DNA from: Sulfurospirillum sp. | GTDB lineage: Bacteria; Campylobacterota; Campylobacteria; Campylobacterales; Sulfurospirillaceae | Direction of reading: 5' to 3' | NCBI GenBank assembly: GCA_014859685.1 | Contig: JACUTU010000005.1 | Location: forward strand, 124,001-188,000 | Length of the DNA: 64,000 bases | Shown: positions 229 through 64,000 of the stretch, one piece after another | Layout of the letters: each line of letters begins with the position of its first letter | How positions within the stretch are numbered: position 1 is the first letter of the stretch | Notes under the pieces: generated by a model | Told to the model about the DNA's origin: nothing | Databases searched by the model: none | What the model saw: the letters and a program-made list of their open reading frames with translations, nothing else | Position numbers and translations under genes: made by a program

Positions 229-1459
229 AATTTCCATCCTCTTTAGCATCAAATTGCTTTACATGTAGCCAAGTTTTGAGCAGATCTGCTTCGCTTTTAA
301 TTTTGATTTTATTGTAAAATTGATCATAGCCCACAAAAAAATCATCCTTTAATTCTTCCACTAAAACCTCTAGGATGGTGTTATTTTTTTTGCGAAAAGC
401 ATAATTTTTAGCATCTACCAAAGCTTGAATTTGCAACAATCTTTGTTTTGCCACATCACCTCTTATTTGTGGCTTCAAAAGAGCGCTTGGCGTGCCATCT
501 CGTTTTGAATATACAAAAGCATGGATATGTGTGAGTGGAAATTTTTCAAGTGTAGCGAACGCTTCATCCCAAACTTCGGGAGTTTCTCCTGGATGACCTG
601 TGATAAAATCAGTTCCCAAAGCAAAACCTTTGGCGGCAAGTTCTTCAAATAAAATCAAATCTTTATGCACTTGATTGCGTCGCTTCATAAGTGCTAACAT
701 ATTTTTTGAAGTGTGTTGCAAAGCTACATGTAAGTGTCTCTCTAGCCACGGCTCATCTAAAATCTCTTTAAAACTTGCATCAATTTGCACAGGCTCAATG
801 CTTCCTAATCGTATACGCCTGACACCTTTTATCAAACTTATGTGTTGCAACAATTCTCCAAGACTCGTGTTTTTATCTTTGCCATAACTACCGATATTTG
901 TGCCTGAGAGTACAAACTCGCCAAAACCATTGGCTGCTAATTTTTTTATCTGCTCAAGTATCTTTGCCTCATCTTGACTTCTCGCATCGCCTCGCACAAA
1001 AGGGATGATGCAATACGAACAACGAAAATCACACCCTTCTTGAATTTTGATAAATGCTTTGCTTTTTGAACTCATATCACTCACAATTGTACTATCAAGT
1101 GAGTGCAAATCCCCCATCTGCATAAATGAAGATGGAGCATGTAGGAGTGTGTTGATCTGCTCTTTTTCAGAGTGTCCAAGCACGCCAAAAACTTTTTTGG
1201 CCCGCAAAAGTTCTTCTCCACGGCTCAACGCTCCACAGCCAGCTAGGATCACTTTTTTACCTGTTCTGTTTTGTGCATTGATATAATTTCTCGCACCACT
1301 ATCGGCACCATTTGTTACCGTACAAGAATTGATAACCACGATATCAGCGCTCGCTTCATCATCTACTATCTCAAAATCTTTTATATTTTGCATCATCACT
1401 TGTGTATCATAGATATTTGTACGGCACCCAAATGTTTTAAAAAAAACTTTTTGTTTCAA
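215..1459 (-). CDS. mtaB: MtaB-type tRNA methylthiotransferase (radical SAM)
   Basis: Predicted to add a methylthio group to N6-threonylcarbamoyladenosine at position 37 of ANN-decoding tRNAs. The 414-residue protein has the N-terminal methylthiotransferase domain with three cluster cysteines (C12, C46, C75) and the radical-SAM motif CX3CX2C at C143, C147 and C150. A TRAM-like tail follows. Length and the TFGCRTN start fit MtaB/YqeV better than MiaB or RimO. The start is TTG, chosen because AGGAG lies 9 bases upstream. It lies 80 bases after mscS and overlaps the next gene by 14 bases, so it belongs to the aroB-mscS-mtaB-ftsH-like series. Confidence 0.88.
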   Translation of the reverse strand: MKQKVFFKTFGCRTNIYDTQVMMQNIKDFEIVDDEASADIVVINSCTVTNGADSGARNYINAQNRTGKKVILAGCGALSRGEELLRAKKVFGVLGHSEKEQINTLLHAPSSFMQMGDLHSLDSTIVSDMSSKSKAFIKIQEGCDFRCSYCIIPFVRGDARSQDEAKILEQIKKLAANGFGEFVLSGTNIGSYGKDKNTSLGELLQHISLIKGVRRIRLGSIEPVQIDASFKEILDEPWLERHLHVALQHTSKNMLALMKRRNQVHKDLILFEELAAKGFALGTDFITGHPGETPEVWDEAFATLEKFPLTHIHAFVYSKRDGTPSALLKPQIRGDVAKQRLLQIQALVDAKNYAFRKKNNTILEVLVEELKDDFFVGYDQFYNKIKIKSEADLLKTWLHVKQFDAKEDGNYATY

Positions 1460-1539
1460 TTCTTATTTCTCCTGTTTTTTAAAGCAAGTCTTGCCTTTGA
1501 CAAGAATGAAACTCTTAAGATAAATGCTTGCGGGTTTCA

Positions 1540-3168
1540 TTAAAATAGCACATCCTTGTTGATATCAATATCTAGTGGTGTTTTTCTTTGGTATTTGAGA
1601 TTGATAGTTTGTGTTGGATAGGCGATAGTGATATCATCTTCTTTGTTGATAGCATCCACGATATCCGCTGAGATATTGCTTCGCAGAGTCAAAGCAGCGT
1701 AAGAATTTGTCATATACCATGTGCTTATCACTAGGCCATACGGTTCATAAAATGAGAAAATACGCGGTTCAACATTTGTATTTTTAAGACTATATTGATG
1801 TCGCAATTGATTCAAATTTCTTCTTGCTATATCGGTGTATCCTTTGGAATATTTTTTTGTAATTTCCTTGATAATATAGAGTGCTTTCTTGTGGTTTGAA
1901 TCAAAAGTGATCGTCACATCGATGCCATCCCAAACTGTTTTGAGAGTTCCATGCGTGTAATTTGAGATAAGCGTTGTGAAGATAAAATTATTTGGCACAA
2001 AAAATACCCTTCCAGATCGACGATTTTCCATATATGTAGTAAGTGTGATATCCTCAAATATCGTCATTCGCAAAAGTGAAATATCGATGATATCGCCCAC
2101 ATAAGGCGCTCCATCCTTGAGTACTTTGATGCGATCTCCCACATGAAAACTTCCGCCAAAAACAATTACAAGCCAACCCAAAATGCTCATAAACCAATCT
2201 TTCATAGCGATCGCAATACCTGCAGATGCAAAACCCAAAACAGTCACAAGATAAGAAACATTTTCAATATACGCAAACAACAAAATGATCAAAATCAATG
2301 TGATATTTATAAAATTGATAATCTTATTTGCCATATAGTATCGTTCATTGTCTTTTATATATTTTTTAGCAATCATTTTAAATATTAACGACAAGACGAT
2401 AACGATGATCACAAATACTGCGATATTTAATGCCCGCTCCATCTGCTCTTTGATCTCATTTGTAACACCATACTTGATCTCATCTACTTTTTTAGTGTAG
2501 AGTGAATAAGTAGTTTGTGCAAGCTCGTGAGCACCATCAAATGCAATGAGATCTTTATCTATAGTAAGTAACTTTTGTTGGTTTTCCTCCGTATCAAAGA
2601 GTGTGACAACCTGCGTTACAAGTTCTCTTTTTTCTTGCAACTTTTTGATGAGCAAATCTAGTGTTGTTATCCTTGCGTTATAATCTGCCCTATCTTTTTC
2701 AATGAGTTTGATATATGAGAGTGCCGTAAAGATAGCAAAGGGACTGCTTATGTTTGGTTTAGGAGCGAGATCATCTGGTTTTACTATACTCAAAAATGGA
2801 GAAATTTTAAACTCTTGTAGCAATTCTAATTGCTTTTCAAGATTGTTTTGTTTTAAGCTTAATTCTTTTATTTTTGCTTTAGAAATATCATCTTTGCGTT
2901 TTGAGAATATTTTGATCTGCTCGTCGATACTAGTAAGTTCTTCCAAAAGTCGCTGGTATGCTGCATAATTTTCATAACGAATGAGCCAGATATTGTCCTT
3001 TATCGTTGCATCTATATTTGCTATTTGCACTCTAAGTGTATCCAACTTGCGTTGCATCTCCTTTTGAAGTGTGGCATTTGTCTCAGCTTCAAAGCTTGCA
3101 TTGAGATCTTCTCTAGCAAAAGTAAAAGATAAAAAAAGTAATGCAATAAGCCAAAAATATCTACGCAT
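1540..3168 (-). CDS. MscS-family mechanosensitive channel with long periplasmic N-terminus
   Basis: Predicted inner-membrane small-conductance mechanosensitive channel releasing solutes on osmotic downshock. From the ATG at 3168 the protein is 542 residues: an 18-residue signal peptide ending TFA, a long helical, charged region to about residue 235 (probably periplasmic coiled coil), hydrophobic segments at about 245-345, then the MscS core with glycine/alanine-rich pore helix ([14 protein letters not shown]) and the beta domain beginning near FHVGDRIKV. An upstream in-frame ATG at 3213 would hide the signal peptide and overlap aroB by 53 bases, so I prefer 3168, which overlaps aroB by 8. The H. 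pylori homologue occupies the same place between aroB and mtaB. Confidence 0.85.
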
Positions 3169-4207
3169 GAAATGCCTCCAACGATGTGCAAATTGTCTCT
3201 TTTGTGATATCATCTTTTATAGCAAATGATCCAATTGTTTTGGGTAAAATAAACTTTATCTTATGATTGTGTGATTTTTTATCCAAGAAAAACGCCTCAT
3301 AAAATTTTTCTACATGTAAGAGTTCATAGCTAGTTGGCAAGTTGTAGCCCTCAAGCAATGCTTGCACTCTTGCAGCATCTTCTTCGCACATCAAGCCCAA
3401 AGTGAGAGCAAGTGCATTTGCCATGCACATACCAATGCCAACTGCTTCGCCGTGCAAATAGCGAGTATAGTGTGTTTCATTTTCAATCACATGAGCAAAA
3501 GTATGACCATAATTCAAAACCGCTCGAATGCCCTCTTCTTTCTCGTCTTGTGCCACAACGCTCGCTTTGATGGCAACGCATTTTTGGATAGCTTGCTTGA
3601 GATTTGCCTCTACATGTAAGCTGTTATTTTCCAGCCAATAAAAAAAATCTGCATCAAAAGTAACTGCCATTTTGATGATCTCAGCCACGCCAGCACTGAA
3701 TTCGCGTTGTGGCAATGTTTGCAAAAATTTACTCTCACAATACACCGCCATTGGCTGCCAAAATGAGCCGATAAGATTTTTACCAAAACTATTGTTGATA
3801 CCGGTTTTTCCTCCAACACTTGCATCAACTTGTGCTAAAAGTGTTGTGGGAATTTGGATAAATTTGATGCCTCGCTGGTAGATTGAAGCACAAAAACCGC
3901 ACATATCGCCAATCACTCCGCCACCAAAAGCTATCAAAACAGATTTGCGATCGAGCCTATTTTTGAAACACTCTTCTAAGATAAAATTGATTGTTTCAAA
4001 ATTTTTGTATTTCTCACCATCAGGAATAATAATCTCATAGCACTCTTTAGCCTTGATAGTTTGCAAAATCGCATCACCATGCAACGCCCAAATCGTAGGA
4101 TTTGAGACGATGGCTACTTTTGTATCAAACGATAAATGTTCTAATTCATCGATATAAACCGTGTAATCTTGTGTTTTTTTTGCCTGAAAATTGATCTGAA
4201 CTTGCAT
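3161..4207 (-). CDS. aroB: 3-dehydroquinate synthase
   Basis: Second step of the shikimate pathway: converts DAHP to 3-dehydroquinate, using NAD and a divalent metal. The 348-residue product shows the glycine-rich [11 protein letters not shown] segment, the VGGKTGINN lysine/asparagine motif, and metal ligands in VAEIIK, YGHTFAH and [10 protein letters not shown]. The ATG at 4207 is chosen over an in-frame TTG four codons upstream because GGGA lies at good spacing before it. A TATAAT lies about 30 bases upstream. The coding sequence overlaps mscS by 8 bases. Confidence 0.95.
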
Positions 4208-4233
4208 ATGTAATCCCAAAATAAATATGCTAG

Positions 4234-5715: not shown

Positions 5716-6567
5716 ATGAAAATTTTTTTTGGCATCTTTTTTTACGCAGTAACTTCACTTTTTGGTTTTGAATACTTGCTTGAGAAGACATTTTTACAAG
5801 ATTCTTCACTTATAAAAGATGAGTTAATGCTCAAAAAGCTAGAGAAGCAAAAAACAGCAAGCAATGCCCAAGAATTGCTACAAAATTCTATAAAAATAAA
5901 AAAACAAACTATTGCTTTTGAGATTATCCGTCAAATGCTCAATCAAAAAAATGATCAACAAAAAAAGATAAAAACCATCTTGGAAAATGCGACCTTACCA
6001 CAAGATAACAATGCTACTAAAGCTCTACATGTAAGCCTCAACGCACAGCTCCAATCAGAATTTTTACATCTTTTAGCCCTAGAAAATATAGAAGATGGGG
6101 TAAAAAAACTCTACGAGGATTTGGCATTATTTTCTGAAAATGTTCGTGATAAAAATTCATTTTTGCTCACCAAAGCAAAGATCTTTTTTTTGACAGGAAC
6201 GCTAGTTTCAAAACTAAAAGAAGCGCAGTACTTTGCCAAAATTCACTTTTCAAGCAATGACACGAACATCAGCTCTTACTCTATGTCACTGCTTGCATGG
6301 TATGCTAAAAAGATGCGAGAAATGGAAAAAGCGAAGATAGAACTTACAGGGCATAGCGACATATTGCAAGGCTCACTTGAAAATGAGAAATTAGCATTAC
6401 AAAGAGCGGAGGAAACAAAAAAAGCACTTGTGAGTTTTGGACTTGAAGCCAAAAATATCACTACAAAAACTCACAGCGATTTATATCCAATCGCAAGTCA
6501 AGAAACACCGCAAGGACGCCTTTTAAATAGACGCGTTACCATAAAAATCATAGAGGAAAACAATTGA
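5716..6567 (+). CDS. Exported protein with C-terminal OmpA-like domain
   Basis: 283 residues with an N-terminal signal-like segment (residues 1-18, [20 protein letters not shown]). The middle is helical and charged. The last 80 residues look like an OmpA_C peptidoglycan-binding fold: IELTGHSD, then a [15 protein letters not shown] helix, and a closing NRRVTIKI, which matches the usual NRRV end. The family name rests on these motifs only. If correct, the protein binds the cell wall in the periplasm. It ends in a 4-base overlap (TTGA) with tgt. The ATG has only a distant AGGGG, and a -10-like element lies 5 bases upstream. Confidence 0.6.
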
Positions 6568-7691
6568 AATTTAGAATCGATGGCACAGATCAAGCAGCAC
6601 GCGCTTGCACAATCCAAACAACTCATAGTACTATTCAAACACCTGTTTTTATGCCCGTTGGCACCGCAGGAAGCGTGAAAAGTTTAGATGCTCAAGATAT
6701 GGCACTAGAACTTGGAGCGCAGATTATTTTGGGTAACACTTATCATTTGTATCTAAGACCAAGCGATACTGTAGTAAAGCATTTTGGTGGATTGCATGGT
6801 TTTACAAAGTTTCCAAATAGCTTTTTAACAGATAGCGGCGGATTTCAAGCATTTTCACTCAGTGACATCTCAAAAGCTGACGCATTTGGTATCCATTTTA
6901 AAAGCCACATAGATGGGAGTAAACACTACTTTACACCACAAAAAGTGCTTGATATTCAGTACAATCTCAATGCAGACATCATGATGATACTCGATGATCT
7001 CGTGGCTCTGCCTGCAACGAAAGAAAGAATAGCACTCTCCATAGAACGCACAACAAATTGGGCAAAAGAAGCGATAGTTCACCACAACACTCAAAAGCAA
7101 AAAGGTTTAAGAACTCATCAAAATATCTTTGCTATCATTCAAGGAGGCACTGATGAAGGATTTCGCAAAATATCTGCAACAGAACTGTGTGCTTTAGAAG
7201 ATTTTGATGGCTATGCTATCGGGGGCTTGAGTGTCGGAGAAGCCAATCAACAGATGTATGATACCGTTGCATTTACCACTCCTTTCATGCCACAAAACAA
7301 ACCTCGATATCTTATGGGCGTTGGCACACCCGAAGATTTAGTAGAAAATGTAGAGCGTGGTGTGGATATGTTTGATTGTGTTATGCCAACAAGAAATGCC
7401 AGAAATGGCACACTTTTTACTTCGTTTGGCAAGATAAACATCAAATCTGCCAAATACCAATTAGACGATGATCCAATAGATCCACAGTGCGATTGTTTTA
7501 CATGTAAACATTATAGCAAAGGGTATTTATCACACCTCTATCGCTCGAGAGAACTCACTTATTTTAGGCTTGCGAGCTTACACAATTTGCACTACTATCT
7601 CACTTTAATGAAAGAGATGCGTCACGCTATACTCGATCATAGATTTCGTGCATTTAAACAAGAATTTTATGCAAAAAGGACGGTCAAATGA
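6564..7691 (+). CDS. tgt: Queuine/preQ1 tRNA-ribosyltransferase
   Basis: Exchanges guanine-34 in GUN-anticodon tRNAs for preQ1, a step in queuosine synthesis; queA in this window acts next. The 375-residue TIM barrel shows the catalytic aspartate D90 in DSGGFQ, the GGLSVGE substrate loop (about 221-227), the nucleophile D271 in [14 protein letters not shown], and zinc ligands C309, C311, C314 and H340. The start is TTG at 6564, overlapping the upstream stop by 4 bases (TTGA). The following TAXI gene overlaps it by 4 bases (ATGA). Confidence 0.96.
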
Positions 7692-10268: not shown

Positions 10269-11555
10269 CTACAACCTCGCAAGCACAGCAGCCTCATGCG
10301 CACCTAAACCCTCTGCATTGGCAAGTCTTGCACATGCAACACCCACTTCTTGCAAACCTTTTTGACTCATGCTGATGATGGAAGTTCGCTTCATAAAATT
10401 CTCAACCCCAAGGGGTGAATAAAATTTTGCAGTGCCGCCAGTTGGCAAAGTATGGTTTGGTCCAGCGATATAATCTCCTATTGGCTCAGGCGTGAATTGT
10501 CCCATAAAAATCGCTCCTGCATGTTTGATCTGTGGCAAAATATCAAATGGATGTTTAGTCACTATCTCTAAATGTTCAGGGGCTATTTGGTTCATAAGAG
10601 CAACCGCTTCATCCATGTCACATGTAACAATTATAGCACCCCTATCTTGTATAGATTTACCAGCTATTGCTTTTCTAGAAATTTTTTCAAGCCACTCATA
10701 AATTTTTGTTTTTGTCTGCAATGCTATTTGCTCAAACGGCGTTATTAAGATAGAACTTGCCATCTCATCATGTTCTGCTTGTGAAAGTAAATCTATAGCC
10801 AAAAGATTTGTATCTGCACTTTCATCAGCTAAAATGCCTATTTCACTTGGTCCTGCTATCATATCGATATTGACTTCACCAAAAACCATTTTTTTAGCTG
10901 TTGCTACAAATATATTTCCAGGACCTGTTATCACATCTACTTTTGGAATAGTTGCCGTTCCATATGCCATGGCCGCAATGCCGCTCGCACCCCCTACTTT
11001 ATAAGCCTTAGTTATGCCACAAAGATGCATTGCTGCTAACAAGAGTTCGTTGAGTTCGTTGTTTGGTGCTGGAGTACAGACTACTATCTCTTTCACTCCA
11101 GCCACGATTGCTGGAATAGCATTCATCAAAAGAGAGCTTGGATACGCTGCCTTTCCCCCAGGGATATATAGCCCTGCTCTATCTACAGCATTTACTTTTT
11201 GCCCCAAAACAGTTCCATTGTCCTCAAAGTCAAGCCATGAACTTGGTTTTTGTTTCTCGTGATATGTCTTGATGCGATTATATGCTAAAGAAAGTGCGTC
11301 TTTGAGTTCGGGCGAGATATTTTCATACGCTTCCCTCATCGATGTAGTTGAGATTTGCAAATCACTTTGCGTGCTTGCTTGCCATTTATCAAACTTGCTT
11401 ATATGCCTTATAAGCGCTGCATTACCCTCATTTTTAATCTCAGCGATAATGCCAGAAACTATGGTTGAAACATTGTCCATGTCCATATGTCCGCGTTTCA
11501 AAAGCGAATCAAAATTTTCTTTAAAATTACTATCTGTTGTTTTATATATCTTCAT
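10269..11555 (-). CDS. hisD: Histidinol dehydrogenase
   Basis: Last two steps of histidine synthesis: oxidises L-histidinol to histidine with NAD and zinc. 428 residues with the family segments VDRAGLYIPGGKAAYPSS, TGPGNIFVATAKK, IDMIAGPSEIGI and the C-terminal GPNHTLPTGG. The ATG at 11555 is chosen over one three codons upstream because AAAGGA is 8 bases before it but touches the earlier ATG. It overlaps the PLP-enzyme gene by 14 bases. No other his genes are in the window, so the pathway is scattered, as is common in this phylum. Confidence 0.95.
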   Translation of the reverse strand: MKIYKTTDSNFKENFDSLLKRGHMDMDNVSTIVSGIIAEIKNEGNAALIRHISKFDKWQASTQSDLQISTTSMREAYENISPELKDALSLAYNRIKTYHEKQKPSSWLDFEDNGTVLGQKVNAVDRAGLYIPGGKAAYPSSLLMNAIPAIVAGVKEIVVCTPAPNNELNELLLAAMHLCGITKAYKVGGASGIAAMAYGTATIPKVDVITGPGNIFVATAKKMVFGEVNIDMIAGPSEIGILADESADTNLLAIDLLSQAEHDEMASSILITPFEQIALQTKTKIYEWLEKISRKAIAGKSIQDRGAIIVTCDMDEAVALMNQIAPEHLEIVTKHPFDILPQIKHAGAIFMGQFTPEPIGDYIAGPNHTLPTGGTAKFYSPLGVENFMKRTSIISMSQKGLQEVGVACARLANAEGLGAHEAAVLARL

Positions 11556-12447
11556 TTTTTTCATCCTTTAAAAGCTCGATTATACCATACTTGTATTTAT
11601 ATCTTTCTAACATCGATTCATTGCCTAAAAGTCCACCTTGATGGATATAAATCAGATCACCTTGCAAGGTGTGCCAGTACTCTAAAAGCTTTCTCCAACC
11701 TACAACATCATAAATCAAATCGTATTGAATGTGTGTGTATTGTTCGAGTTCGCTCCAAATTTTATAAAGTTCAAGCGAGGGTTTTGCATAATGGAATTTT
11801 TGAGAAATGTCCAATATTTTTGGAAAAAACTCTTCATTTTGTTCAAGCATTTGCCACTGTTTTTTAAGGTATACATCATCTGCAACAGTGCTACATGTAA
11901 AGACTGGATATTGAAGATACTTTTGCAGATACAAAGCTGTCGTGCCTGTACCAGAGGGTAAAAATACAAAAGGATTTTGCAAATGATGTGTTCTTATATC
12001 GTCTTGTAATTCTTGAGCTAAAATCTTCAAACCAAACTCCGCTTCACTTTGGCGTCCACCTTCTTGAACCACTAATGTGTCTTTACGAGCAAGTGCATTT
12101 GCACTCAAATTTGTATCTTCACTTTGGTATATTTTCATCCCATTTTGCAAAGCTGCTTTATAGTTTCCGATAGGATTTTGCTGCAAAAAAGAAGGAATTT
12201 GTTTGCAAAAATAGATAAATTCCCAGCCCCGCATGCGTGCCAATACTGAAAGCGAATACATGGCGTTTGATTGGTTGGATCCATAAGAAACAACACGCCT
12301 TACATGTAAGTATTCTTGAGATAAAAAGTAATGCAATTTGCGTGCTTTGTTACCCGAAAAATCAGCATGCAACAAATCATCTCTTTTAAGATAAAAGTCT
12401 CTATTTCTAAAATGCTGTTTTTGTAGTGGTGATGGAGAAAATTGCAT
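11542..12447 (-). CDS. PLP-dependent ACC deaminase/D-cysteine desulfhydrase family enzyme
   Basis: 301 residues of fold-type II PLP enzyme. Seen: YLKRDDLL and SGNKARKL, whose first lysine should hold PLP; SYGSNQSNAM, the phosphate/substrate loop; and FLPSGTGTTAL. These are signatures of the family comprising 1-aminocyclopropane-1-carboxylate deaminase and D-cysteine desulfhydrase. Which amino acid is cleaved cannot be told from sequence; D-cysteine or another D-amino acid is more likely than ACC in a non-plant-associated bacterium. It lies between fbaA and hisD in a minus-strand operon. Confidence 0.75.
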   Translation of the reverse strand: MQFSPSPLQKQHFRNRDFYLKRDDLLHADFSGNKARKLHYFLSQEYLHVRRVVSYGSNQSNAMYSLSVLARMRGWEFIYFCKQIPSFLQQNPIGNYKAALQNGMKIYQSEDTNLSANALARKDTLVVQEGGRQSEAEFGLKILAQELQDDIRTHHLQNPFVFLPSGTGTTALYLQKYLQYPVFTCSTVADDVYLKKQWQMLEQNEEFFPKILDISQKFHYAKPSLELYKIWSELEQYTHIQYDLIYDVVGWRKLLEYWHTLQGDLIYIHQGGLLGNESMLERYKYKYGIIELLKDEKNEDI

Positions 12448-14382: not shown

Positions 14383-14444
14383 CTAATTCCTTCTAATGTA
14401 ATTTTTCAATTTGAGCATTTTACTCATCTTTGAATTAAAAAATG

Positions 14445-14450
14445 ATTATA
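14445..14450 (-). promoter_or_regulatory. -10 element for the PEB4-like gene
   Basis: Minus-strand TTTGGTATAAT in the gap to the divergent nth gene. The predicted leader is about 55 bases. Confidence 0.5.
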
Positions 14451-14485
14451 CCAAAGTGGCATAAATGCTTCCTAAATAGTTTTGC

Positions 14486-14491
14486 TATAAT
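14486..14491 (+). promoter_or_regulatory. Extended -10 promoter for nth
   Basis: Plus-strand TTTTGCTATAAT, an extended TGn-TATAAT. Transcription would start near 14498, leaving about a 40-base leader before the ATG at 14538. This supports the downstream start, because the earlier in-frame ATG at 14442 would lie upstream of the promoter. Confidence 0.55.
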
Positions 14492-14537
14492 CATTACAAA
14501 ATTTACTTTATGCTTCAATAGCAAGGAAACGGACGAT

Positions 14538-15182
14538 ATGAAAAAAGCAAGTAAAAAAGATGTAGCATTTATCAAAACAACATTGAGCGAAAGATATGCT
14601 GATGCGGTTAGTGAGTTGCGGTACACAAGCCTTTATGAACTCTTAGTGGCAGTTATGCTCTCAGCACAATGCACAGACAAAAGAGTGAACATCATCACAC
14701 CAAATCTTTTTGCAGCATATCCCAATACTAAAAAATTAGCGCTTGCTGATATAGATGAACTCAAAGCACTTATAAATTCTTGCTCATTTTTCAACAACAA
14801 AGCAGCCAACCTCATCAAAATGGCTCGCAGTGTAGAGGAAAATTTTGGTGGCATGATACCACTTGATGAAGCATCGCTTATCTCTTTGGCTGGAGTTGGA
14901 CAAAAAACCGCACATGTAGTTATGATAGAACACACAGGTGCAAATGTGATGGCTGTAGATACTCATGTTTTTCGTGTTTCACACAGATTGGGACTCAGCG
15001 TTGCAAAAACACCAAGTGCAACAGAACTAGATTTGAGTAAAAAATTTCAAACCAACCTACATGTACTCCACCAAGCGATGGTTCTTTTTGGCAGATATAC
15101 ATGTAAAGCAAAAAATCCCCTTTGTGAGGAGTGTTTTTTAAGTAGTGTTTGCAAAAGCAAAGAGAGTTTTAAAGCGGGCTAA
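14538..15182 (+). CDS. nth: Endonuclease III
   Basis: Base-excision repair glycosylase/AP lyase removing oxidised pyrimidines. From the ATG at 14538 (AAGGAAACGG before it) the protein is 214 residues, the normal family length. Seen: LMLSAQ-like substrate region, the helix-hairpin-helix SLAGVGQKTAHVV with the catalytic lysine, VDTHVFRVSHRLG with the catalytic aspartate, and a 4Fe-4S cluster motif CX6CX2CX5C at the end. Its last 4 bases overlap the end of the convergent thioredoxin-fold gene. Confidence 0.95.
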   Translation: MKKASKKDVAFIKTTLSERYADAVSELRYTSLYELLVAVMLSAQCTDKRVNIITPNLFAAYPNTKKLALADIDELKALINSCSFFNNKAANLIKMARSVEENFGGMIPLDEASLISLAGVGQKTAHVVMIEHTGANVMAVDTHVFRVSHRLGLSVAKTPSATELDLSKKFQTNLHVLHQAMVLFGRYTCKAKNPLCEECFLSSVCKSKESFKAG

Positions 15183-15745
15183 TCACCCAAAACAGTGTTG
15201 AGCCATTTGATAGAACATCCAAGTGATGAATACTGTGGCAATGGTGGTTTTTGTTCACCAAAAAGTGCTATAAGTGCTTCTCTGAGATCTTCACTCTTTA
15301 CAGATCGCTCATCATGCCAATTATCATCTACTCTACCATGATAAAAGAGTTTCGCCTCTTTATCAAACAAAAAGATTTCAGGCGTACATGTAGCTTTGAG
15401 TGAATGAGCAACCGCTTGCTCTGCATCGATGAGATAAGGAAAATCAAAGCCAAACTCTTTTTGCTTATCGAGCATATGTGCAGGTGAATCTTCGGGATAA
15501 TTTGGATGAATATTTGGATTGATTGCGACCGTATTGACATCCAATTTTTTTGCAAATTCAGCCACTTTTATCAACCGCGACCAGATCGCATTTGAATAGG
15601 GGCAATGGTTGCACATCACAGCTATAATAAGTCCTGTTTTGCCAAGTAATTCTCGCGAATTATAAACCTTTTCACAAGCATCACTTAAAGAAAACTCTCG
15701 CAACACACTACCCAACGCCAATTCTTTTGATTTTACAAGTGACAT
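15179..15745 (-). CDS. Thioredoxin-fold (AhpC/TSA-like) protein with CNHCP motif
   Basis: 188 residues of thioredoxin/peroxiredoxin-like fold without a signal peptide, so probably cytoplasmic. Seen: LGKTGLIIAVMCNHCPYSNAI with a CXXC pair, NPNIHPNYPEDSP, and a cis-proline region TCTPEIFLFD. This pattern fits the PRX-like1 group, whose substrate is not established. Its start is 2 bases from the pepD stop, so they are likely co-transcribed. Confidence 0.75.
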   Translation of the reverse strand: MSLVKSKELALGSVLREFSLSDACEKVYNSRELLGKTGLIIAVMCNHCPYSNAIWSRLIKVAEFAKKLDVNTVAINPNIHPNYPEDSPAHMLDKQKEFGFDFPYLIDAEQAVAHSLKATCTPEIFLFDKEAKLFYHGRVDDNWHDERSVKSEDLREALIALFGEQKPPLPQYSSLGCSIKWLNTVLGD

Positions 15746-17085: not shown

Positions 17086-17313
17086 ATGAAAAAGTTATTA
17101 ATCCCTATTGTACCATTTCTTTTCTCTGGATGTTTGTATGTCAATGATCGTGGCATTGATACACATTATTACAATACATGTAAAGAGTATTATGATTCTA
17201 TGGGCGTGTATCATAAGCAGTGCGATGAAAATTTGCTTGAATTTCAAAGTATCAAAAATGAAACCGCACAAATCATAGACGAAACAAAAAAACTTTTTAA
17301 AGAAAGCAAATGA
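17086..17313 (+). CDS. Small predicted lipoprotein
   Basis: 75 residues: basic start, hydrophobic core and a lipobox LFSGC (cysteine at residue 16), so it should be lipidated and exported. The mature part is about 60 residues, tyrosine-rich at the front (DTHYYNTCKEYYDSMGVYHKQC) with two further cysteines, then a helical charged tail. No known domain. It overlaps cmoB by 4 bases (ATGA). C. jejuni has a lipoprotein gene in the same neighbourhood. Confidence 0.75.
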   Translation: MKKLLIPIVPFLFSGCLYVNDRGIDTHYYNTCKEYYDSMGVYHKQCDENLLEFQSIKNETAQIIDETKKLFKESK

Positions 17314-40327: not shown

Positions 40328-42990
<2,663 letters not shown>

Positions 42991-47086: not shown

Positions 47087-47193
47087 TTCATTGTCTCCTT
47101 TTTTGCTAGGCTTATGGGTTTCATATTTTCTTTAATGCTTTTTTTAGATAGAATGTTACCAAAAAAGTGATTAAATTTTGCCAAAGGCTACGC

Positions 47194-49490: not shown

Positions 49491-50512
49491 ATCCGCTTTT
49501 TTTCAGAGATAGTTACAACTATGACTTACCACAAGAGCTTATAGCGGACTTTCCAGCAAACCCAAGACAGAGTGCCAAACTCCTCGTGTATGATTGCAAA
49601 ACCAAAAAAATCACGCATACTATTTTTAAAGAACTCTTTTCATTTTTACCGCAAGATACGGCCGTGATTTTGAATGATACAAAAGTGATCAAAGCAAGAA
49701 TTTTTGGAGTAAAACAAAGTGGCGGAAAGATAGAACTGCTCTTAAATTCTCCATTGCAAGACAATTTATACAGCGTTTATATACGCGGAAAAGTAAACAT
49801 CGGCAGTGAACTTTTTTTTGAAAATAACCTCAAAGCGATTGTACAAAAACTTCAAGATGATGGTACTAGAGTTGTAGCTTTTTTTCAAAACAGTAAACAA
49901 ATCGACACAAAAAAACTTTTTGATATTTTAGAATCTATCGGACATATTCCTCTGCCTCCTTATATAAAACGCCCTGACACCCTACAAGATGCAAGTGAAT
50001 ATCAAACTGTTTTCAGTAAGATTCAAGGTGCGGTGGCAGCACCAACTGCTTCATTGCATTTTAGTCAATCAATGTTTAGCGAGCTTCAAAAACGGTATGC
50101 ACATGGTTTTCTTACCTTACATGTAGGTGCTGGAACATTCAAACCTGTAGAAGCTGAAAATATAAATGACCATGTAATGCACAGTGAGTTTTACGCACTT
50201 AGCGAGGCTACATGTAAGCTCTTAAATTCGGAAAAAAAGATACTTGCTGTGGGAACAACGGTAACAAGAAGCGTTGAGTATTTTGTGCGAACCCAAAAAC
50301 AAAGTGGTTTTAGCAACCTCTTTTTACATCCAAACAACCAGCCACAAAGGGTTGACCACCTTTTGACAAATTTTCACTTGCCAAAATCAACACTCATAAT
50401 GCTTGTTGCTTCATTTATTGGACTCAACGAAACACTTCGCATTTACCAAGAAGCTATCGATCAAAAATACAGATTTTTTTCTTACGGTGATGCGATGCTG
50501 ATTATGCGTTGA
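49487..50512 (+). CDS. queA: S-adenosylmethionine:tRNA ribosyltransferase-isomerase, apparent AUA start
   Basis: Transfers the ribosyl of SAM to preQ1-tRNA to make epoxyqueuosine, after Tgt. The frame is open from 49472. Conserved QueA N-terminal residues (SYNYDLPQELIADFPANPRQ) are encoded from about 49511, upstream of the first usual start codon, a GTG at 49586. The only well-placed initiation point is ATA at 49487, with AAGGAAG 6 bases before it; the product then begins (M)DPLFFRDSYNYDLP and is 341 residues, the family length. Other motifs: ILNDTKVIKARIFG, GAVAAPTASLHF, LHVGAGTFKPV, NFHLPKSTLIMLV. Confidence 0.9.
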   Translation: MDPLFFRDSYNYDLPQELIADFPANPRQSAKLLVYDCKTKKITHTIFKELFSFLPQDTAVILNDTKVIKARIFGVKQSGGKIELLLNSPLQDNLYSVYIRGKVNIGSELFFENNLKAIVQKLQDDGTRVVAFFQNSKQIDTKKLFDILESIGHIPLPPYIKRPDTLQDASEYQTVFSKIQGAVAAPTASLHFSQSMFSELQKRYAHGFLTLHVGAGTFKPVEAENINDHVMHSEFYALSEATCKLLNSEKKILAVGTTVTRSVEYFVRTQKQSGFSNLFLHPNNQPQRVDHLLTNFHLPKSTLIMLVASFIGLNETLRIYQEAIDQKYRFFSYGDAMLIMR

Positions 50513-50972: not shown

Positions 50973-51358
50973 ATTGCAATATAACGCTCAAGGATAATTT
51001 TTGCAGCCATCGAGTCTATTTTACCATCTCTTTTTTGTCGATTTATGCCTCGCATTGCGGTTTTTGCTTCTATGCTTGAGCCGTATTCATCTACAAAAAA
51101 AACCTCTTTTGAAAAATCAAGCAAAGAGATAAAATGTTTGATTCGTCTATCCATCTCCTCTTCGCTTGCTCCACCTTTTGGGATACCTACAACTAAAAGC
51201 TCAATTTGCCAATTTTGTAAAAACTGATCTACTTCTCTTGCTGCTTGCACACGATTTTTACGCAAGATCGCTTCTTGAGGGATAATTACACCCTCCATCA
51301 AGCACAAAGCAACTCCAATGCGTTTCAAGCCGATATCTAAAGCAGCGATCTTTTTCAA
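50963..51358 (-). CDS. ruvX: Putative Holliday junction resolvase / pre-16S rRNA nuclease
   Basis: YqgF family, RNase H fold. 131 residues with ALDIGLKRIGVAL (catalytic aspartate D7), VVGIPKGGASEEE and FFVDEYGSSIEA (second acidic pair). In other bacteria it trims the 16S rRNA 5' end. It overlaps dprA by 4 bases. Its final KN-stop is encoded in the end repeat of copy C. Confidence 0.9.
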   Translation of the reverse strand: MKKIAALDIGLKRIGVALCLMEGVIIPQEAILRKNRVQAAREVDQFLQNWQIELLVVGIPKGGASEEEMDRRIKHFISLLDFSKEVFFVDEYGSSIEAKTAMRGINRQKRDGKIDSMAAKIILERYIAMKN

Positions 51359-52134
51359 CTTAGTCTCACTATTTTGCCATTGATAATTTTGATAAGACCT
51401 TGCAATTCATATTCATATACAAGCTCCCCAAATGTGCCAAGAGCCTCAAATAAACTCGGTTGCAAATCGCAAAAAACCAAAAAAGGATCAGCAGCACTCT
51501 GCGTTATTATTGCATCACTATGTAGAGCAACAAAAGCATCTATGTCATAGATACACTTTGCGAAACCTTGCGACAAAAGATCATTTGTAGCTTGACTTTC
51601 ACCAAGTCTATGCGGAAATACAAAGATCTCTTTTTGCATTTTTAAGGCATACTCCACACTTCGCATACTTCCCGAACCAATGTCGGCATACGCCACCACA
51701 ATCACCTCTCCAAGTGCTACAATAAGCTCATTTCGAAGAGGAAAATTATATTTCGCAGATGGTGTTCCTATCGCAAATTGGCTCAGCACTAAACCGTTTT
51801 CCTCGATAGATTGGATCATACGCGCATTGATAGCTGGATACCTTTTATCAAGTCCTGTGCCTGCTACCATGATGGTATTGTGCGTGCCTGCATGTAAATG
51901 TGCGATCGTATCTGCACCAATAGCACCACCGCTTACGACGCAAACACCAGCGTTAGAGAGTTTACTCGCGAGCTTACATGTAAGCTCTTTTGCATAAGGG
52001 TTGAGTTTGCGACTCCCCACGATGGAGATTTTTCGTTTTTGCAGTAGTTCAAGATTACCTTTATAAAAAAGATGTGGCGGGTATTTACGCATAGAGTGCA
52101 ATTGCGGGATATCAAAACTTATCTCTTGTATCAT
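51355..52134 (-). CDS. dprA: DNA-processing protein DprA
   Basis: Loads RecA on incoming single-stranded DNA in natural transformation. 259 residues: Rossmann-like core with KISIVGSRKLNPYAKEL, GVCVVSGGAIGADTIAH, PLRNELIVALGEVIVV and GSGSMRSVEYAL; C-terminal DML1-like winged helix is short. It lies between the YibQ-like gene and ruvX; H. pylori has the same dprA-ruvX pair. Confidence 0.94.
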   Translation of the reverse strand: MIQEISFDIPQLHSMRKYPPHLFYKGNLELLQKRKISIVGSRKLNPYAKELTCKLASKLSNAGVCVVSGGAIGADTIAHLHAGTHNTIMVAGTGLDKRYPAINARMIQSIEENGLVLSQFAIGTPSAKYNFPLRNELIVALGEVIVVAYADIGSGSMRSVEYALKMQKEIFVFPHRLGESQATNDLLSQGFAKCIYDIDAFVALHSDAIITQSAADPFLVFCDLQPSLFEALGTFGELVYEYELQGLIKIINGKIVRLS

Positions 52135-54287: not shown

Positions 54288-54320
54288 TACATGTAAGCGA
54301 TTATATATCGCTTACATGTA
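54288..54320. terminator. Second stem-loop built from two inverted TACATGTA copies
   Basis: Arms TACATGTAAGCGAT and ATCGCTTACATGTA pair 14 of 14 around TATAT, in the 72-base gap between ilvC (ends 54329) and minD (starts 54256), both on the minus strand. No T-run follows. Confidence 0.55.
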
Positions 54321-55481: not shown

Positions 55482-56294
55482 ATGGAAAGCAGCATTATTA
55501 AGAAGATTAAGTCCCTCCCTCCGCTGGATGATACCATCCTAAAAATTCAACAAGTTTGCAATGATAAAAATAGTTCCTTAAACGAACTTGTTAAAATTGT
55601 TGAAACGGATCCAATGCTTACTGCCAATATTCTCAAATCTTCCAATTCACCTTTATACGGATTTAGTCGCGAGATCAAAAATATATCCCACGCTATATCA
55701 CTTTTTGGAATGGCAACTATCCGCGGTTTCGCACTCTCAAGCGCCATCAAACAAAATTTAAAAATAGATCTTAGCCCTTATGGCATATCAAACCAACAAT
55801 TTTTAACAATTAGCACGCAACAAAGTGCGCTCATGTTCAATTGGTACTCAAAAATAAACAAATCATTACTCGACATCTTGATTCCTGCTTCGTTTTTGAT
55901 GGAAGTTGGCAAGATAATCATCTCACACGAGATCACTGAACTTGGCAAAAAAGAGGAATTTTTCTTGCAAGTGAAATCTCTTAAAACACCACTTGAACTT
56001 TCCAATATAGAAAAAGAGTTTGTTGGTTTTTCAAACGAAGAAATCACTGCAAAAATCTTTGAAACATGGAATTTAGAATTAGAACTCGTAGAATCTATCC
56101 GATATTGTAATGATCCGCAAAACGCACCTGAGCATATCAAAGCATATAGCACTGCATTGTTAGCTATCAAAACTTGCATTAACATCTTTGGAGCATTCAC
56201 CAACGATTCTATTGCCGCAACGCTTAGTTTGCTAGCACAAAATGAACTTGATCAAGAAATCTTTTTAGCTGCGATCGAAAAAGTCAATCAATGA
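55482..56294 (+). CDS. HDOD-domain signalling protein
   Basis: 270 residues, almost all one HDOD domain (related to HD phosphohydrolases but lacking the metal HD pair): IKSLPPLDDTILKIQQ, ETDPMLTANILKSSNSPLYG, and ISHAISLFGMATIRGFALSS. These proteins often act in signalling or motility regulation without known catalysis. The ATG at 55482 is preferred over TTG at 55470. It overlaps rnr by 4 bases. Confidence 0.85.
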   Translation: MESSIIKKIKSLPPLDDTILKIQQVCNDKNSSLNELVKIVETDPMLTANILKSSNSPLYGFSREIKNISHAISLFGMATIRGFALSSAIKQNLKIDLSPYGISNQQFLTISTQQSALMFNWYSKINKSLLDILIPASFLMEVGKIIISHEITELGKKEEFFLQVKSLKTPLELSNIEKEFVGFSNEEITAKIFETWNLELELVESIRYCNDPQNAPEHIKAYSTALLAIKTCINIFGAFTNDSIAATLSLLAQNELDQEIFLAAIEKVNQ

Positions 56295-58228
56295 ATCAAT
56301 TTCTCCTCGCCCTCACTCAAGGAATGAGCGAGGAGGAAATCACACCCGAATTCCGCCCTCTTTTTCTTGAACTTCAAGGTCTGAAAGTACTTAAAAAAGT
56401 AAAAAATATTTACGAATTAGACAATCATTACCGTTTTGGCATCATAGACATTGCTTTTAGTGGTACGGGATTTGTACAAACCTTCTCACAGCAACATTTC
56501 AAAGATCTTCTCATTGAACCCCGAGATACACATGGTGCAATGCGAGGTGATATAGTCTTAGTCAAACGCCTACATGTAAGCGACAGCAGAGCAAAAGCCA
56601 AAGTAATTTACATCATCAAAAGAGCCCATGCTTCAAGTCTTGTCTATACTAAAATGCAAGCCAAACAAATCCTTGGCATCAACATTAAAACAGGTTTAGC
56701 ACAACAACTCGCGGCGACACAAAAATCACTCAAGCAACTTCCCGATGCAACGGTACTTAAAATCAGCAATGATGGTGGCGTTATAGAAGAGGTTTTGGGT
56801 GTTATGAGCGATCCGCTTGTAGATGAAAAAATTTCACTTGCACTCTATGAAAAAGTGGAGTATTTTTCAAAAGAAGCAGAGCTTGAGGCAAGTAGCCATG
56901 GAGATTTTGTAGAGCGATCGCTCTATAGCAATAGAGTTGATCTCACGCATCTTCCTTTTTGCACCATTGACCCTGTGGATGCAAAGGATTTTGATGACGC
57001 CATCTATTTTGATGTGCAAGAAAACACACTTTATGTTGCTATCGCCGATGTGAGTGAATATCTTTTTGATATGGGAGCGTGTGATAAAGAAGCGAAAACA
57101 AGAGGCTTTTCAATCTATTTTCCACACAAATCCATCCCAATGCTTCCACGAAGTCTTAGTGAAAATATCTGCTCACTTAAGCCAAATACCGATAGACTTG
57201 CTTTTACTTTTAAAATCAAACTTGATCCAAATTCACTAGAACCACAAAGTGAAGAGCTATTTGAGAGCATTATCCACTCCAAAAGACGCTATAACTACGA
57301 TGAGATAGATCTTTTTTTGCAAAAAGATTTCTCACAAGCCACAAGCGTAGATGATGCAATACTAAGCTATCTTTTACCTCTTGATACACTCATGCAAAGA
57401 GTTCGCACAAAGCGACTTAAAGATTCTTTTGAATTTTGCTCAAGTGAAATTCGTATGCAAGTAGATGCCAATCAAAACCTCCTTACAACCAATATCGAAA
57501 CGCAAACAGCCTCACACTCACTCATAGAAGATTGTATGTTGCTTGCCAATAAAGCTGCTGCAAAACGGATCTCTTATGGCATTTTTCGCACACACGCTGA
57601 ACCAACTTATGAAAAGATGATACAACTACTAGACGACCTTGTACTTGTTGGCATCAGCGTACCTTTTCACCCAAATCTTCCAGTTCTCATAAAAACCATA
57701 CAAGAAAAAGCCGATGCCTTTGATATCAGGCAAGAGGTTGATAAACTCATTATCAAATCGCAACAAAAAGCTGTATATGAGCCAGAAAATAAGGGACATT
57801 TTGGGCTTGGATTTTCAAGTTATACACATTTTACTTCACCTATTAGGCGTTACAGTGATCTTACATTGCATAGACTGCTCAAAGCAGATTTGACTCACAA
57901 TACAAAAAGAAAGGCTTTTTTACTCAAAGGAATCGAATCGCTTTGTGAACAAATCAGCAATCTTGAGCGAGAAAGCGACAAAGTTGCATGGGACTATATG
58001 GATCGAAAATACGCAAGATGGGCGCGGGACAATATCGGTGAAAATGTAGAAGCAATCATCATAGATATCAATAAAACACCCGTAGCAAAACTTGATGATA
58101 AACTTAAAGGGGCTCGTATATTTTTGTTAGATGAGGATGTTGATCTTTTTGAACGCGTACTTATCAAACTCGTTGAAGCAGATATCGCTACAACAAAAAT
58201 CTTTGCAAAAATTGTACGGAGATTGTGA
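56291..58228 (+). CDS. rnr: Ribonuclease R
   Basis: 3'-5' exoribonuclease able to degrade structured RNA. 645 residues: a short N-terminal part, cold-shock-like fold, then the RNB core with TIDPVDAKDFDDAIYFD (metal aspartates), YHFTSPIRRYSDLTLHRLL-like segment (as THFTSPIRRYSDL), and a degenerate S1 end. Length equals that of Helicobacter enzymes and is shorter than E. coli. It overlaps HDOD and holA. Confidence 0.93.
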   Translation: MNQFLLALTQGMSEEEITPEFRPLFLELQGLKVLKKVKNIYELDNHYRFGIIDIAFSGTGFVQTFSQQHFKDLLIEPRDTHGAMRGDIVLVKRLHVSDSRAKAKVIYIIKRAHASSLVYTKMQAKQILGINIKTGLAQQLAATQKSLKQLPDATVLKISNDGGVIEEVLGVMSDPLVDEKISLALYEKVEYFSKEAELEASSHGDFVERSLYSNRVDLTHLPFCTIDPVDAKDFDDAIYFDVQENTLYVAIADVSEYLFDMGACDKEAKTRGFSIYFPHKSIPMLPRSLSENICSLKPNTDRLAFTFKIKLDPNSLEPQSEELFESIIHSKRRYNYDEIDLFLQKDFSQATSVDDAILSYLLPLDTLMQRVRTKRLKDSFEFCSSEIRMQVDANQNLLTTNIETQTASHSLIEDCMLLANKAAAKRISYGIFRTHAEPTYEKMIQLLDDLVLVGISVPFHPNLPVLIKTIQEKADAFDIRQEVDKLIIKSQQKAVYEPENKGHFGLGFSSYTHFTSPIRRYSDLTLHRLLKADLTHNTKRKAFLLKGIESLCEQISNLERESDKVAWDYMDRKYARWARDNIGENVEAIIIDINKTPVAKLDDKLKGARIFLLDEDVDLFERVLIKLVEADIATTKIFAKIVRRL

Positions 58229-59211
58229 TGTATAAAAGAGATCTTGAGCGTGCTTTGCAAACCAAAACACTCCCGCAGATTATCTTTCTTTATGGAGAAT
58301 GTGACTATCAAAATAACTATTTTGCACAAAAAACTCTCGCATATTGGGGCGTTACTGAAGATGAAAAACTTTCACTTTATTTTGATGAATATGATACAAA
58401 AAGTGCCATTATGCACCTTAGTCAATCTTCTCTCTTTGGTGGAAAAAATGTTCTGCTTATCAAAACAGACAAAGATCTTAGCAAAGATGCTAAGGAGTTG
58501 ATTCAATTATGTCATAAAAATAGTGATAATTTTTTCTTATACCAGTATTTTGGAGAAAGCCAAAAAGCCAAAAAAATAGCCGATAACTTTTCTAAAAAAA
58601 ATAAAGCAGATTTTGTGAGATTTTTTAAGCCAAATATATCTGAAGCAATGGCGCTCTTACATGTAAGAGCCAAAGAGGTTGGATTAGAGATTCAAGGTTA
58701 TGCACTTTCATATCTTTATATGCAGCACCATGAAAATCTTTCTCTTTGTGCTAATGAATTTGAAAAACTTTCTTTGCTTGATAAAGAGATTGATACAAAT
58801 GATATAGATAGATTTGTTTATGGGCTTGGGAGTGTTAGTATGGAAGATTTTATCGCAAAATTACTCAAAAAAGAGGATATACGAACAGATTTTGCTACGC
58901 TTTGTGAAAGTGGCGTGAACGATGAAAACGACATTATTAGAGCACTTGAATTCTCCATCGTTTCACTTTTACAATTTCACATGTATATCAAAATCCATGG
59001 AACTTTTGATGCACGAGAAATTTTAGGCTATCCCTTGCCACCACAGATAGCAGCACAAAGAGCGCAAGCGTGTATGAAGATAGATCTGATAACCTATAAA
59101 AATCTTCTTGAATATCTATTTGTTAATGATCTCAAACTTAAAAAAGTAAAAAATCTTGATAAAAATAGTTTTTTACTCGCAACACTCATCGGGTTGCAAA
59201 AACTACTTTAA
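58228..59211 (+). CDS. holA: DNA polymerase III delta subunit (HolA-like)
   Basis: 327 residues. Clamp-loader wrench subunit. Seen: QIIFLYGECDYQNNYFAQ, LSQSSLFGGKNVLLIKTDKDLS, and FDAREILGYPLPPQIAAQRAQ near the end. The ATG at 58228 overlaps the rnr stop (TGATG) and has GGAG at better spacing than the GTG one codon earlier. Divergent from E. coli, as in its phylum. Confidence 0.85.
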   Translation: MYKRDLERALQTKTLPQIIFLYGECDYQNNYFAQKTLAYWGVTEDEKLSLYFDEYDTKSAIMHLSQSSLFGGKNVLLIKTDKDLSKDAKELIQLCHKNSDNFFLYQYFGESQKAKKIADNFSKKNKADFVRFFKPNISEAMALLHVRAKEVGLEIQGYALSYLYMQHHENLSLCANEFEKLSLLDKEIDTNDIDRFVYGLGSVSMEDFIAKLLKKEDIRTDFATLCESGVNDENDIIRALEFSIVSLLQFHMYIKIHGTFDAREILGYPLPPQIAAQRAQACMKIDLITYKNLLEYLFVNDLKLKKVKNLDKNSFLLATLIGLQKLL

Positions 59212-60614: not shown

Positions 60615-60621
60615 TCTTACA

Positions 60622-60656
60622 TGTAGCACTTCTTATCGTCTGATAAAGGTGCTACA
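60622..60656. terminator. Hairpin between convergent ppiB and repressor genes
   Basis: TGTAGCAC pairs with GTGCTACA, extended by TTATC/GATAA with a small mismatch. The left arm starts in a TACATGTA copy, and the right arm contains the repressor stop codon. Serves both directions if active. Confidence 0.6.
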
Positions 60657-62765: not shown

Positions 62766-62786
62766 GACTTACATGTAAGCTTCAAA

Positions 62787-62822
62787 GGGAGTGACACGAT
62801 TATCGTGTCACTCCCTTTTTTT
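62787..62822. terminator. Strong bidirectional terminator between rpsR and lon
   Basis: Arms GGGAGTGACACGAT and ATCGTGTCACTCCC pair 14 of 14 around a single base (effective loop 3 or more), followed by seven T on the plus strand; the opposite strand has TTTGAAG. A TACATGTA copy lies just before it at 62770. The T-run touches the lon stop codon. Confidence 0.9.
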
Positions 62823-64000
62823 ATGCCCGCACTAGTGTGTGTTCCAAAACTTCTTCTATGTGCGTTATCGGAAGTATCTGCATTTTTGCTTTCACTTCAT
62901 CTGGAATATCTTTAAGATCTCTCTCAAAATTTTTCTTTGGTATAAGCGCTAAGTTAATTTTGGCTTTAAAAGCTGCGATCAGTTTTTCTTTGAGTCCACC
63001 TATTGGCAATACTTTTCCACTTAAAGTAAGTTCGCCAGTCATTGCTACATCACTTCTTACTTTATATTCACCGAGAATAGAAGCGATCGCACATGCCATA
63101 GTGATACCCGCACTTGGACCATCTTTTGGTGTTGCCCCTTCTGGTACATGTAAGTGCAAATCAAAACGCCTATAAATCTCGCTTGCCTCAAGATTACTAA
63201 CCTTTTCATCTATCTCTTTTTGGCTTAGTGGTATAAGCGATGGCTTTATGGTAAGCTTTTTCTCATCAATCAAAACTTTCACAACACTCAAGGCTATCTT
63301 TGCAGACTCTTTCATCACTTCCCCTAAAGAGCCAGTGATTTGCATTGCACCTTTGCCTTTGATTTTAAGTGCTTCAACACGCAAAACATCTCCGCCAACA
63401 CTCGTCCATGCTAGACCATTGACTTGACCAATTGTATCTTTTCTGTCTCTCTCTTCTATTTCAAAAACTTTTTTCTCTAAAAATTGTTCCAAATTTGCAA
63501 GTGAAATTGAAATTTTTTTGATGGAAGGATCAATCAACAACTGTTTTGCAACTTTTCTCAGTATCTCAGCAACTCTTCTGCGAAGATTTCTCACACCTGC
63601 CTCTCGCGTATAGTTTGCGATAATTATCTCAAGCGCGGTTTTGCTAAAAGTTATTTCAGAGTTTTTTAACCCATGTTTTTTTAATTCTTGCGGTATAAGA
63701 TATTTTTTCAAAATTTCAAGTTTTTCCTGAGGCGTATAAGAACTTAAAAATATAAACTCCATCCTATCACGCAAAGGCGCAGGAATAGAACCGACATCAT
63801 TTGCAGTTGCAATAAAAACTACCTTGCTCAAATCAAGATTGAAATTGAGATAATAATCCCTAAATCGATTATTTTGTTCAGGATCTAAAATTTCTAAAAG
63901 CGCCGCAGTTGGATCACCTCTATAGTTTTTTGCTACTTTGTCTATTTCATCAAGCACCATAACAGGATTCATTTGCTTAGCTTCGATCAGCCCTTGCACA
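62821..64000 (-). CDS. lon: ATP-dependent protease Lon, C-terminal part (truncated by window edge)
   Basis: The final ~393 codons. Visible: Walker B and sensor region of the AAA+ module ([56 protein letters not shown]) and the protease domain with catalytic serine in [14 protein letters not shown] and lysine in [12 protein letters not shown]. The N-terminal substrate domain and Walker A are outside the window. Degrades damaged and regulatory proteins in the cytoplasm. Confidence 0.95.

Follow-up and report, generated by a model that had tools for sequence, protein, structure and literature searches.

Strong conservation of a highly iterated palindromic octamer across Sulfurospirillaceae genomes, with a candidate orphan methyltransferase partner

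We analyzed a 64,000-nt stretch of a genome deposited as Sulfurospirillum sp. (GenBank assembly GCA_014859685.1, contig JACUTU010000005.1, positions 124,001–188,000; hereafter "the window"), along which the palindromic octamer TACATGTA recurs both inside and between genes. Exact counting over the full 64,000 nt gave 43 sites, the first at 260 and the last at 63145–63152, matching the approximate total that a first-pass annotation of the window had reached by hand; its further estimates of about 10 near-relative sites and about 36 percent GC compare with 12 additional one-off TACATGT/ACATGTA sites and a GC content of 36.4%. Chance, which the annotation had put at about 2 sites, accounts for even fewer: dinucleotide shuffles of the window yielded 0.87 ± 0.97 sites (maximum 4), and a trinucleotide Markov model predicted ~1.1. 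Among all 8-mers of the window TACATGTA ranked first for over-representation, and it was also the commonest 8-bp palindrome.

The sites occur in genes of both orientations, 34 of the 43 being genic, and the proposed coding as Leu-His-Val or Thr-Cys-Lys is borne out by 20 sites in a (Leu/Val)-His-Val frame and 14 in an X-Thr-Cys-X frame, with none in the Tyr-Met-Tyr frame. The remaining nine are intergenic, though intergenic DNA makes up 8% of the window. Flanking bases are mainly T or C at position −1 and C or T at −2. The dprA gene reported earlier is indeed present (51355–52134, minus strand, PF02481 match) and itself carries a site. The TACATGTA sites of the window, each with the strand of its host gene, are as follows:

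260–267, in gene 215–1459 (−), Leu-His-Val frame
725–732, in gene 215–1459 (−), Leu-His-Val frame
3311–3318, in gene 3161–4219 (−), Leu-His-Val frame
3611–3618, in gene 3161–4219 (−), Leu-His-Val frame
6026–6033, in gene 5716–6567 (+), Leu-His-Val frame
7499–7506, in gene 6564–7691 (+), Thr-Cys frame
11892–11899, in gene 11542–12447 (−), Thr-Cys frame
12301–12308, in gene 11542–12447 (−), Leu-His-Val frame
15058–15065, in gene 14442–15182 (+), Leu-His-Val frame
15098–15105, in gene 14442–15182 (+), Thr-Cys frame
15385–15392, in gene 15179–15745 (−), Thr-Cys frame
16724–16731, in gene 15747–17033 (−), Thr-Cys frame
17175–17182, intergenic
17452–17459, in gene 17310–18209 (+), Leu-His-Val frame
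21793–21800, in gene 21677–22606 (+), Thr-Cys frame
22542–22549, in gene 21677–22606 (+), Leu-His-Val frame
24863–24870, in gene 23500–24984 (+), Leu-His-Val frame
25472–25479, in gene 24981–25727 (+), Thr-Cys frame
25835–25842, intergenic
27784–27791, in gene 26039–27823 (−), Thr-Cys frame
28872–28879, in gene 28749–29219 (−), Val-His-Val frame
29230–29237, intergenic
31761–31768, in gene 31744–32550 (−), Thr-Cys frame
32371–32378, in gene 31744–32550 (−), Leu-His-Val frame
37800–37807, intergenic, first of inverted pair 37800/37814
37814–37821, intergenic, second of inverted pair 37800/37814
40035–40042, in gene 39493–40392 (−), Thr-Cys frame
40697–40704, in gene 40328–41038 (−), Leu-His-Val frame
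41338–41345, in ligA 41035–42990 (−; Pfam), Leu-His-Val frame
41787–41794, in ligA 41035–42990 (−), Thr-Cys frame
43200–43207, in gene 42994–43440 (−), Thr-Cys frame
44525–44532, in gene 44249–44905 (−), Leu-His-Val frame
48062–48069, in gene 47167–48249 (+), Leu-His-Val frame
50118–50125, in gene 49586–50512 (+), Leu-His-Val frame
50209–50216, in gene 49586–50512 (+), Thr-Cys frame
51975–51982, in dprA 51355–52134 (−; PF02481), Thr-Cys frame
54288–54295, intergenic, first of inverted pair 54288/54313
54313–54320, intergenic, second of inverted pair 54288/54313
56571–56578, in gene 56291–58228 (+; RNase R/II family), Leu-His-Val frame
58658–58665, in gene 58225–59211 (+), Leu-His-Val frame
60618–60625, intergenic
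62770–62777, intergenic
63145–63152, in lon 62821–63999 (−; Pfam), Leu-His-Val frame

The two intergenic pairs, at 37800–37821 and 54288–54320, form perfect or near-perfect inverted repeats, and close pairs of sites (14–55 bp) recur in samples of the window's own genome (G000) and of a relative, G030, resembling the paired DNA uptake sequences (DUS) of Neisseria.

Next, we evaluated the motif in the whole of G000 (2.096 Mb, 23 contigs), which holds 1110 TACATGTA sites versus 38 of the reversed word, the control that we counted in the same genomes throughout; statistics other than exact counts refer to samples of 20–464 kb per genome. In 464 kb of G000, 269 sites were present versus 9.5 expected, so that the excess over a Markov model seen in the window, and typical of a highly iterated palindrome (HIP), extends well beyond it. 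Overall, family genomes carry about one site per 2 kb. Of the sites, 65–82% fall within genes, the intergenic density is 2–5 times the coding density, and convergent gaps are at least as rich as divergent ones. The CACATGTA/TACATGTG variant is enriched 3.8-fold in the same 464 kb. A separate compositional feature is that ACGT tetramers hardly occur (observed/expected 0.02–0.06) in this sample, which includes the window, or in three further genomes (G008, G009 and G017); this scarcity suggests strong restriction pressure and also eliminates TACGTGTA near-misses.

We then compared 100 relatives, namely 44 genomes of Sulfurospirillaceae and 56 from 22 other Campylobacterales families. The enrichment is restricted to Sulfurospirillaceae among the families sampled: 43 of the 44 family genomes clearly exceed the control (92 to 1727 TACATGTA sites versus 16 to 74 reversed words), while the 56 genomes of other families hold 0 to 25 sites, near their control and without enrichment. 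Presence is thus clade-wide with sporadic loss, in the low-count lineages (e.g., G013) and in the sole exception, G005 (28 sites versus 25 controls). G005 has its own over-represented, weaker CATG-centered word, TATCATGA (116 versus 22 in 220 kb), possibly a switched dialect, along with the palindrome ATCATGAT (60 versus 16.6). Dialects on a common core follow genus, with CTTACATGTAAG in the window's own genus (g1), CTTTACATGTAAAG in Sulfurospirillum (g2) and CTCTACATGTAGAG in another Sulfurospirillaceae genus (g4); genome-wide iteration and dialects on an invariant core are both features of DUS. Sites are also found on a plasmid, pSDCE1 of Sulfurospirillum (39,868 bp, in G003), which carries 14. 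Elsewhere in the comparison set, a non-palindromic DUS-like word, TGCGTGAG, was over-represented in a genome of family f17 (G059; 16 versus 1.0 in 40 kb; TCTGCGTGAGC), as were CGAAGAG-centered words in two other families (G046 of f4 and G067 of f6). A search of viral contigs with LigA found no relatives.

To what extent individual sites are retained was measured on pairs of Sulfurospirillum genomes, in orthologous stretches that differ by 5–14%. Of 123 site observations, 95.9% were identical in the partner genome versus 51.1% of all 8-mers, and the core diverged by ~0.7% per base versus ~10% in the flanks. The T and A bordering the octamer, one base on each side, were protected equally to the core, making the decamer TTACATGTAA the conserved unit in Sulfurospirillum. 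Among palindromes numerous enough to be compared with it (TTTGCAAA, AAAATTTT, TTTTAAAA and others), 55–73% of cases were identical, AAGATCTT offering 2 cases only, and TACATGTA surpassed every other tested word of comparable sample size. Outside the octamer, CATG was kept in 67.0% of cases versus a background of 68.6%, and ACATGT in 43.5% versus 58.6%; the unit kept is thus the octamer or decamer and not CATG alone. We conclude that TACATGTA is almost certainly a selected genome-wide mark, and that the octamer or decamer is very likely the unit that is read.

This mark reshapes proteins. In 464 kb of G000, Leu-His-Val (LHV) occurs 123 times versus a mean of 15.8 over five permutations of the tripeptide (~8-fold), and Thr-Cys-Lys (TCK) 50 times versus 5.0; the corresponding values in 420 kb of G030 are 112 versus 18 and 58 versus 3.0, and genomes of other families show no LHV or TCK excess. 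The DNA motif drives peptide usage, not the reverse, and TACATGTA forces amino acid changes. The odds that the sites simply result from a bias in codons, dipeptides or mutation are accordingly next to nil: the octamer does suit Leu-His-Val and Thr-Cys-Lys codons, but enrichment of the tripeptides is limited to places where DNA sites exist or existed, intergenic sites are the denser ones, and conservation exceeds that of all other tested words of comparable sample size.

The palindrome erodes in some lineages. Only 3 of 30 orthologous sites of relatives survive in G013 and 0 of 9 in G016; in both genomes the core diverges at or above the flanking rate, and the LHV and TCK excess persists as peptide scars. 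At codon column 1465 of ligA, the 18 Sulfurospirillum genomes that do not belong to the low-count lineages all have an intact TACATGTA; decayed forms, TGCATGTT, TACATGTC and TGCACGTT among them, are found in exactly the six low-count genomes (G013, G016, G022, G033, G036 and G039).

A candidate partner is a D12-class adenine methyltransferase of ~330 residues (hereafter D12), present in most Sulfurospirillaceae members (missing in G004, G006, G008 and G028) and encoded at a conserved locus in Sulfurospirillum and at a different one in g4. It is solitary in the family, where matches to the endonuclease family PF05315 (ICEA) were confined to two genomes: a weak one in G015, next to D12, and one in G039. 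The G039 match is an ICEA-type endonuclease gene (G039:C17:1430-1981); this Sulfurospirillum genome has eroded sites and no detectable D12. Outside Sulfurospirillaceae, members of the D12 family adjoin a PF05315 ICEA protein (G047, G071, G080, G088, G090 and G098), the adjacency being informative about enzyme-family identity only. Helicobacter encodes ICEA1, an NlaIII-like endonuclease (52% identity; PMC2749054), and both PMC4687069 and the reference list of PMC2749054 describe HpyIM as a CATG-specific methyltransferase. Since D12 relatives pair with ICEA, which is NlaIII-like and thus directed at CATG, D12 itself is probably specific for CATG, by association. Searches of the PDB with D12 and with its ICEA neighbor returned nothing useful.

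Within Sulfurospirillum, site density largely follows D12. All 12 near-complete genomes with a syntenic D12 (synteny checked directly in 9 and assigned by sequence similarity in the rest) hold 484–576 sites/Mb, while the seven in which it is absent or replaced hold 42 (G013), 96, 122, 243, 249, 323 and 500 (G028). Six of the seven retain the flanking genes as neighbors, with no methyltransferase in the interval; in G028 a flanking gene of the D12 locus was not found. Independent contrasts on a ligA tree, itself poorly resolved, gave r = 0.59 (p = 0.008). On these grounds we consider a functional tie between D12 and TACATGTA sites slightly better supported than its absence. Several D12-related loci were also observed: a C-terminal D12 remnant in G004 (G004:C10:84224-84490), a genome with 887 sites, which suggests recent loss; a D12 gene on pSDCE1 (1692-2732) beside IS21, itself with four TACATGTA sites inside 1 kb; and, upstream of D12 in the window's own genome (L013:7954-8196), an 80-aa open reading frame that by eye resembles an N4/N6-methyltransferase start fused to an endonuclease end, a possible restriction-modification remnant. 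Another methyltransferase family, N6_N4_Mtase (PF01555), was rejected as partner, being patchy and absent in many high-count genomes.

Known systems offer partial parallels. The first-pass annotation had likened the palindrome to HIP1 or to DUS, and the likeness holds in site density, distribution over the whole genome, restriction to one clade, selection and dialects, but not in orientation, DUS being oriented and TACATGTA palindromic. HIP1 (GCGATCGC) and alternative HIPs are known from cyanobacteria (Elhai 2015, PMC4390886). Like HIP1, TACATGTA is a palindromic octamer at about one site per 1–2 kb, clade-wide with lineage losses, and with an apparent orphan-methyltransferase target inside; unlike HIP1, it is a different word in a different phylum and base composition, varies in its flanks by dialect and is conserved as a unit of 10 bp. 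In Neisseriaceae, DUS dialects are distributed by genus (Frye et al. 2013, PMC3630211), and TACATGTA shares with DUS the thousand-fold iteration, genus dialects on an invariant core and inverted intergenic pairs, but is a perfect palindrome; DUS act in the uptake of self DNA through a receptor such as ComP. Within the same order, CtsM of Campylobacter jejuni methylates RAATTY and uptake is methylation dependent (PMC8627207, PMC8468864); as in the candidate system here, an orphan adenine methyltransferase and a palindromic motif serve self-DNA recognition, but CtsM recognizes another sequence, and RAATTY is short and frequent (~28,000 copies in the genome of one C. coli strain) while TACATGTA is an iterated octamer. 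IceA/NlaIII CATG systems resemble it in that the D12 family partners PF05315 endonucleases in other families, and differ in that the Sulfurospirillaceae gene stands alone. Restriction leads to site avoidance, not enrichment. Among the matches listed, searches of the open literature (subscription journals being outside their coverage) gave nothing relevant for TACATGTA, nor for either Sulfurospirillum or Sulfurimonas in connection with competence and uptake sequences, and "highly iterated palindrome" returned papers on cyanobacteria or passing citations of the cyanobacterial element. We know of no report of such an element in Campylobacterota.

We give a probability of roughly 40% to TACATGTA being a methylation-coupled, HIP-like self-DNA mark with DUS-like dialects. 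The resident orphan D12 would methylate the adenine in the central CATG of TACATGTA, a putative dimeric protein would read the full palindrome, and the most likely use would be self-DNA recognition, probably during DNA uptake or recombination, much as Neisseria uses DUS or C. jejuni its CtsM-methylated sites. The dispensability of the sites, their dialects, their presence on a plasmid and the C. jejuni precedent together tip the balance narrowly toward uptake or recombination and away from an essential role in the chromosome, although use of TACATGTA in DNA uptake as such stays a tentative proposal with the odds somewhat against it.

A number of observations weigh against this reading. CATG as such is unconserved, which means that selection does not act on methylation alone, and the methyltransferase-target option of the first-pass annotation, which gains from an orphan D12 and from CATG by association, suffers from a link that is inconsistent outside Sulfurospirillum. 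There, sites are present where D12 is missing (1124 in G006, 379 in G008, 887 in G004) and few where D12 is present (28 in G005, 104 in G014, 92 in G025), and G028 retains its 500 sites/Mb within Sulfurospirillum. Many genomes of other families have D12 without sites, which rules out D12 as sole sufficient cause. One-off variants of TACATGTA are mostly without enrichment, in which it differs from the uptake signal sequence of Haemophilus. The word is a perfect palindrome with symmetric conserved flanks, where uptake sequences are oriented and non-palindromic, and no regular spacing was seen, sites being randomly spaced (coefficient of variation 0.95–1.05). Finally, ComEC and a PilC/GspF-type protein are near-universal with or without sites, and a small ComEA-type HHH protein, present in the window's own genome, was found in 1 of 16 Sulfurospirillum genomes searched, a rarity that weakens the uptake reading. 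ComEC, PilC/GspF and ComEA were all dropped as covarying genes, none tracking site number, and the presence of dprA is no specific evidence for uptake.

The strongest competitor, a serious one though still well short of even odds, is a chromosome-maintenance element, as previously suggested for HIP1, in which a nucleoid, segregation or repair protein binds the palindrome independently of uptake. Strong conservation of individual sites, the near-uniform density across the 12 D12-bearing Sulfurospirillum species, the lack of an origin-to-terminus gradient across 20 stretches of G030 and the weak competence-gene case would all suit such a role; dispensability (42 sites/Mb in G013, 28 in all in G005), the plasmid sites and irregular spacing would not. 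Density, dialects on a common core, inverted intergenic pairs, motif-forced protein changes and the presence of dprA and comEC could be read as those of a classical DUS-type uptake sequence, recognized as plain sequence with methylation irrelevant. We regard this as improbable given that TACATGTA is a palindrome, that site number varies independently of the competence genes, that the ComEA-type protein is missing from most Sulfurospirillum genomes searched, and that D12 covaries with sites in Sulfurospirillum.

Two further explanations appear very unlikely. A mismatch-repair ratchet (Elhai, PMC4390886), in which methylation-directed repair makes and keeps sites as a by-product, could draw on the apparent methyltransferase target inside the palindrome and on the HIP1 precedent, but non-synonymous changes are driven here and individual sites conserved, and MutS1 (PF01624) was not found in G000 (1110 sites), G004 (887) or most of g4, a further difference from HIP1 and the ground on which MutS1 was rejected as a general driver. 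Sites of a transcription-factor regulon or global regulator would match the 2–5-fold intergenic density; they would hardly number over 1000, lie 65–82% within genes or fill convergent gaps as richly as or more richly than divergent ones, and no concentration at promoters with expression changes was seen. A polar chromosome signal does not fit either, the word being palindromic, its spacing random and its density in the 20 G030 stretches free of any origin-to-terminus trend.

A stricter form of the self-DNA mark, which we hold to be unlikely, is a passport: the orphan CATG methyltransferase would mark TACATGTA, and a family-specific reader would admit or recombine only marked DNA. If true, the HIP and DUS types of element would amount to a single phenomenon. 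What HIP1 does is a long-standing question, partly since cyanobacteria offer few lineages with loss. In Sulfurospirillum, a genus with cultured, non-pathogenic species, an iterated palindrome can be followed through its presence, erosion, dialects and scars in proteins, and with a candidate methyltransferase lost at a conserved locus, the upkeep of such elements becomes testable by species comparison and a one-gene deletion.

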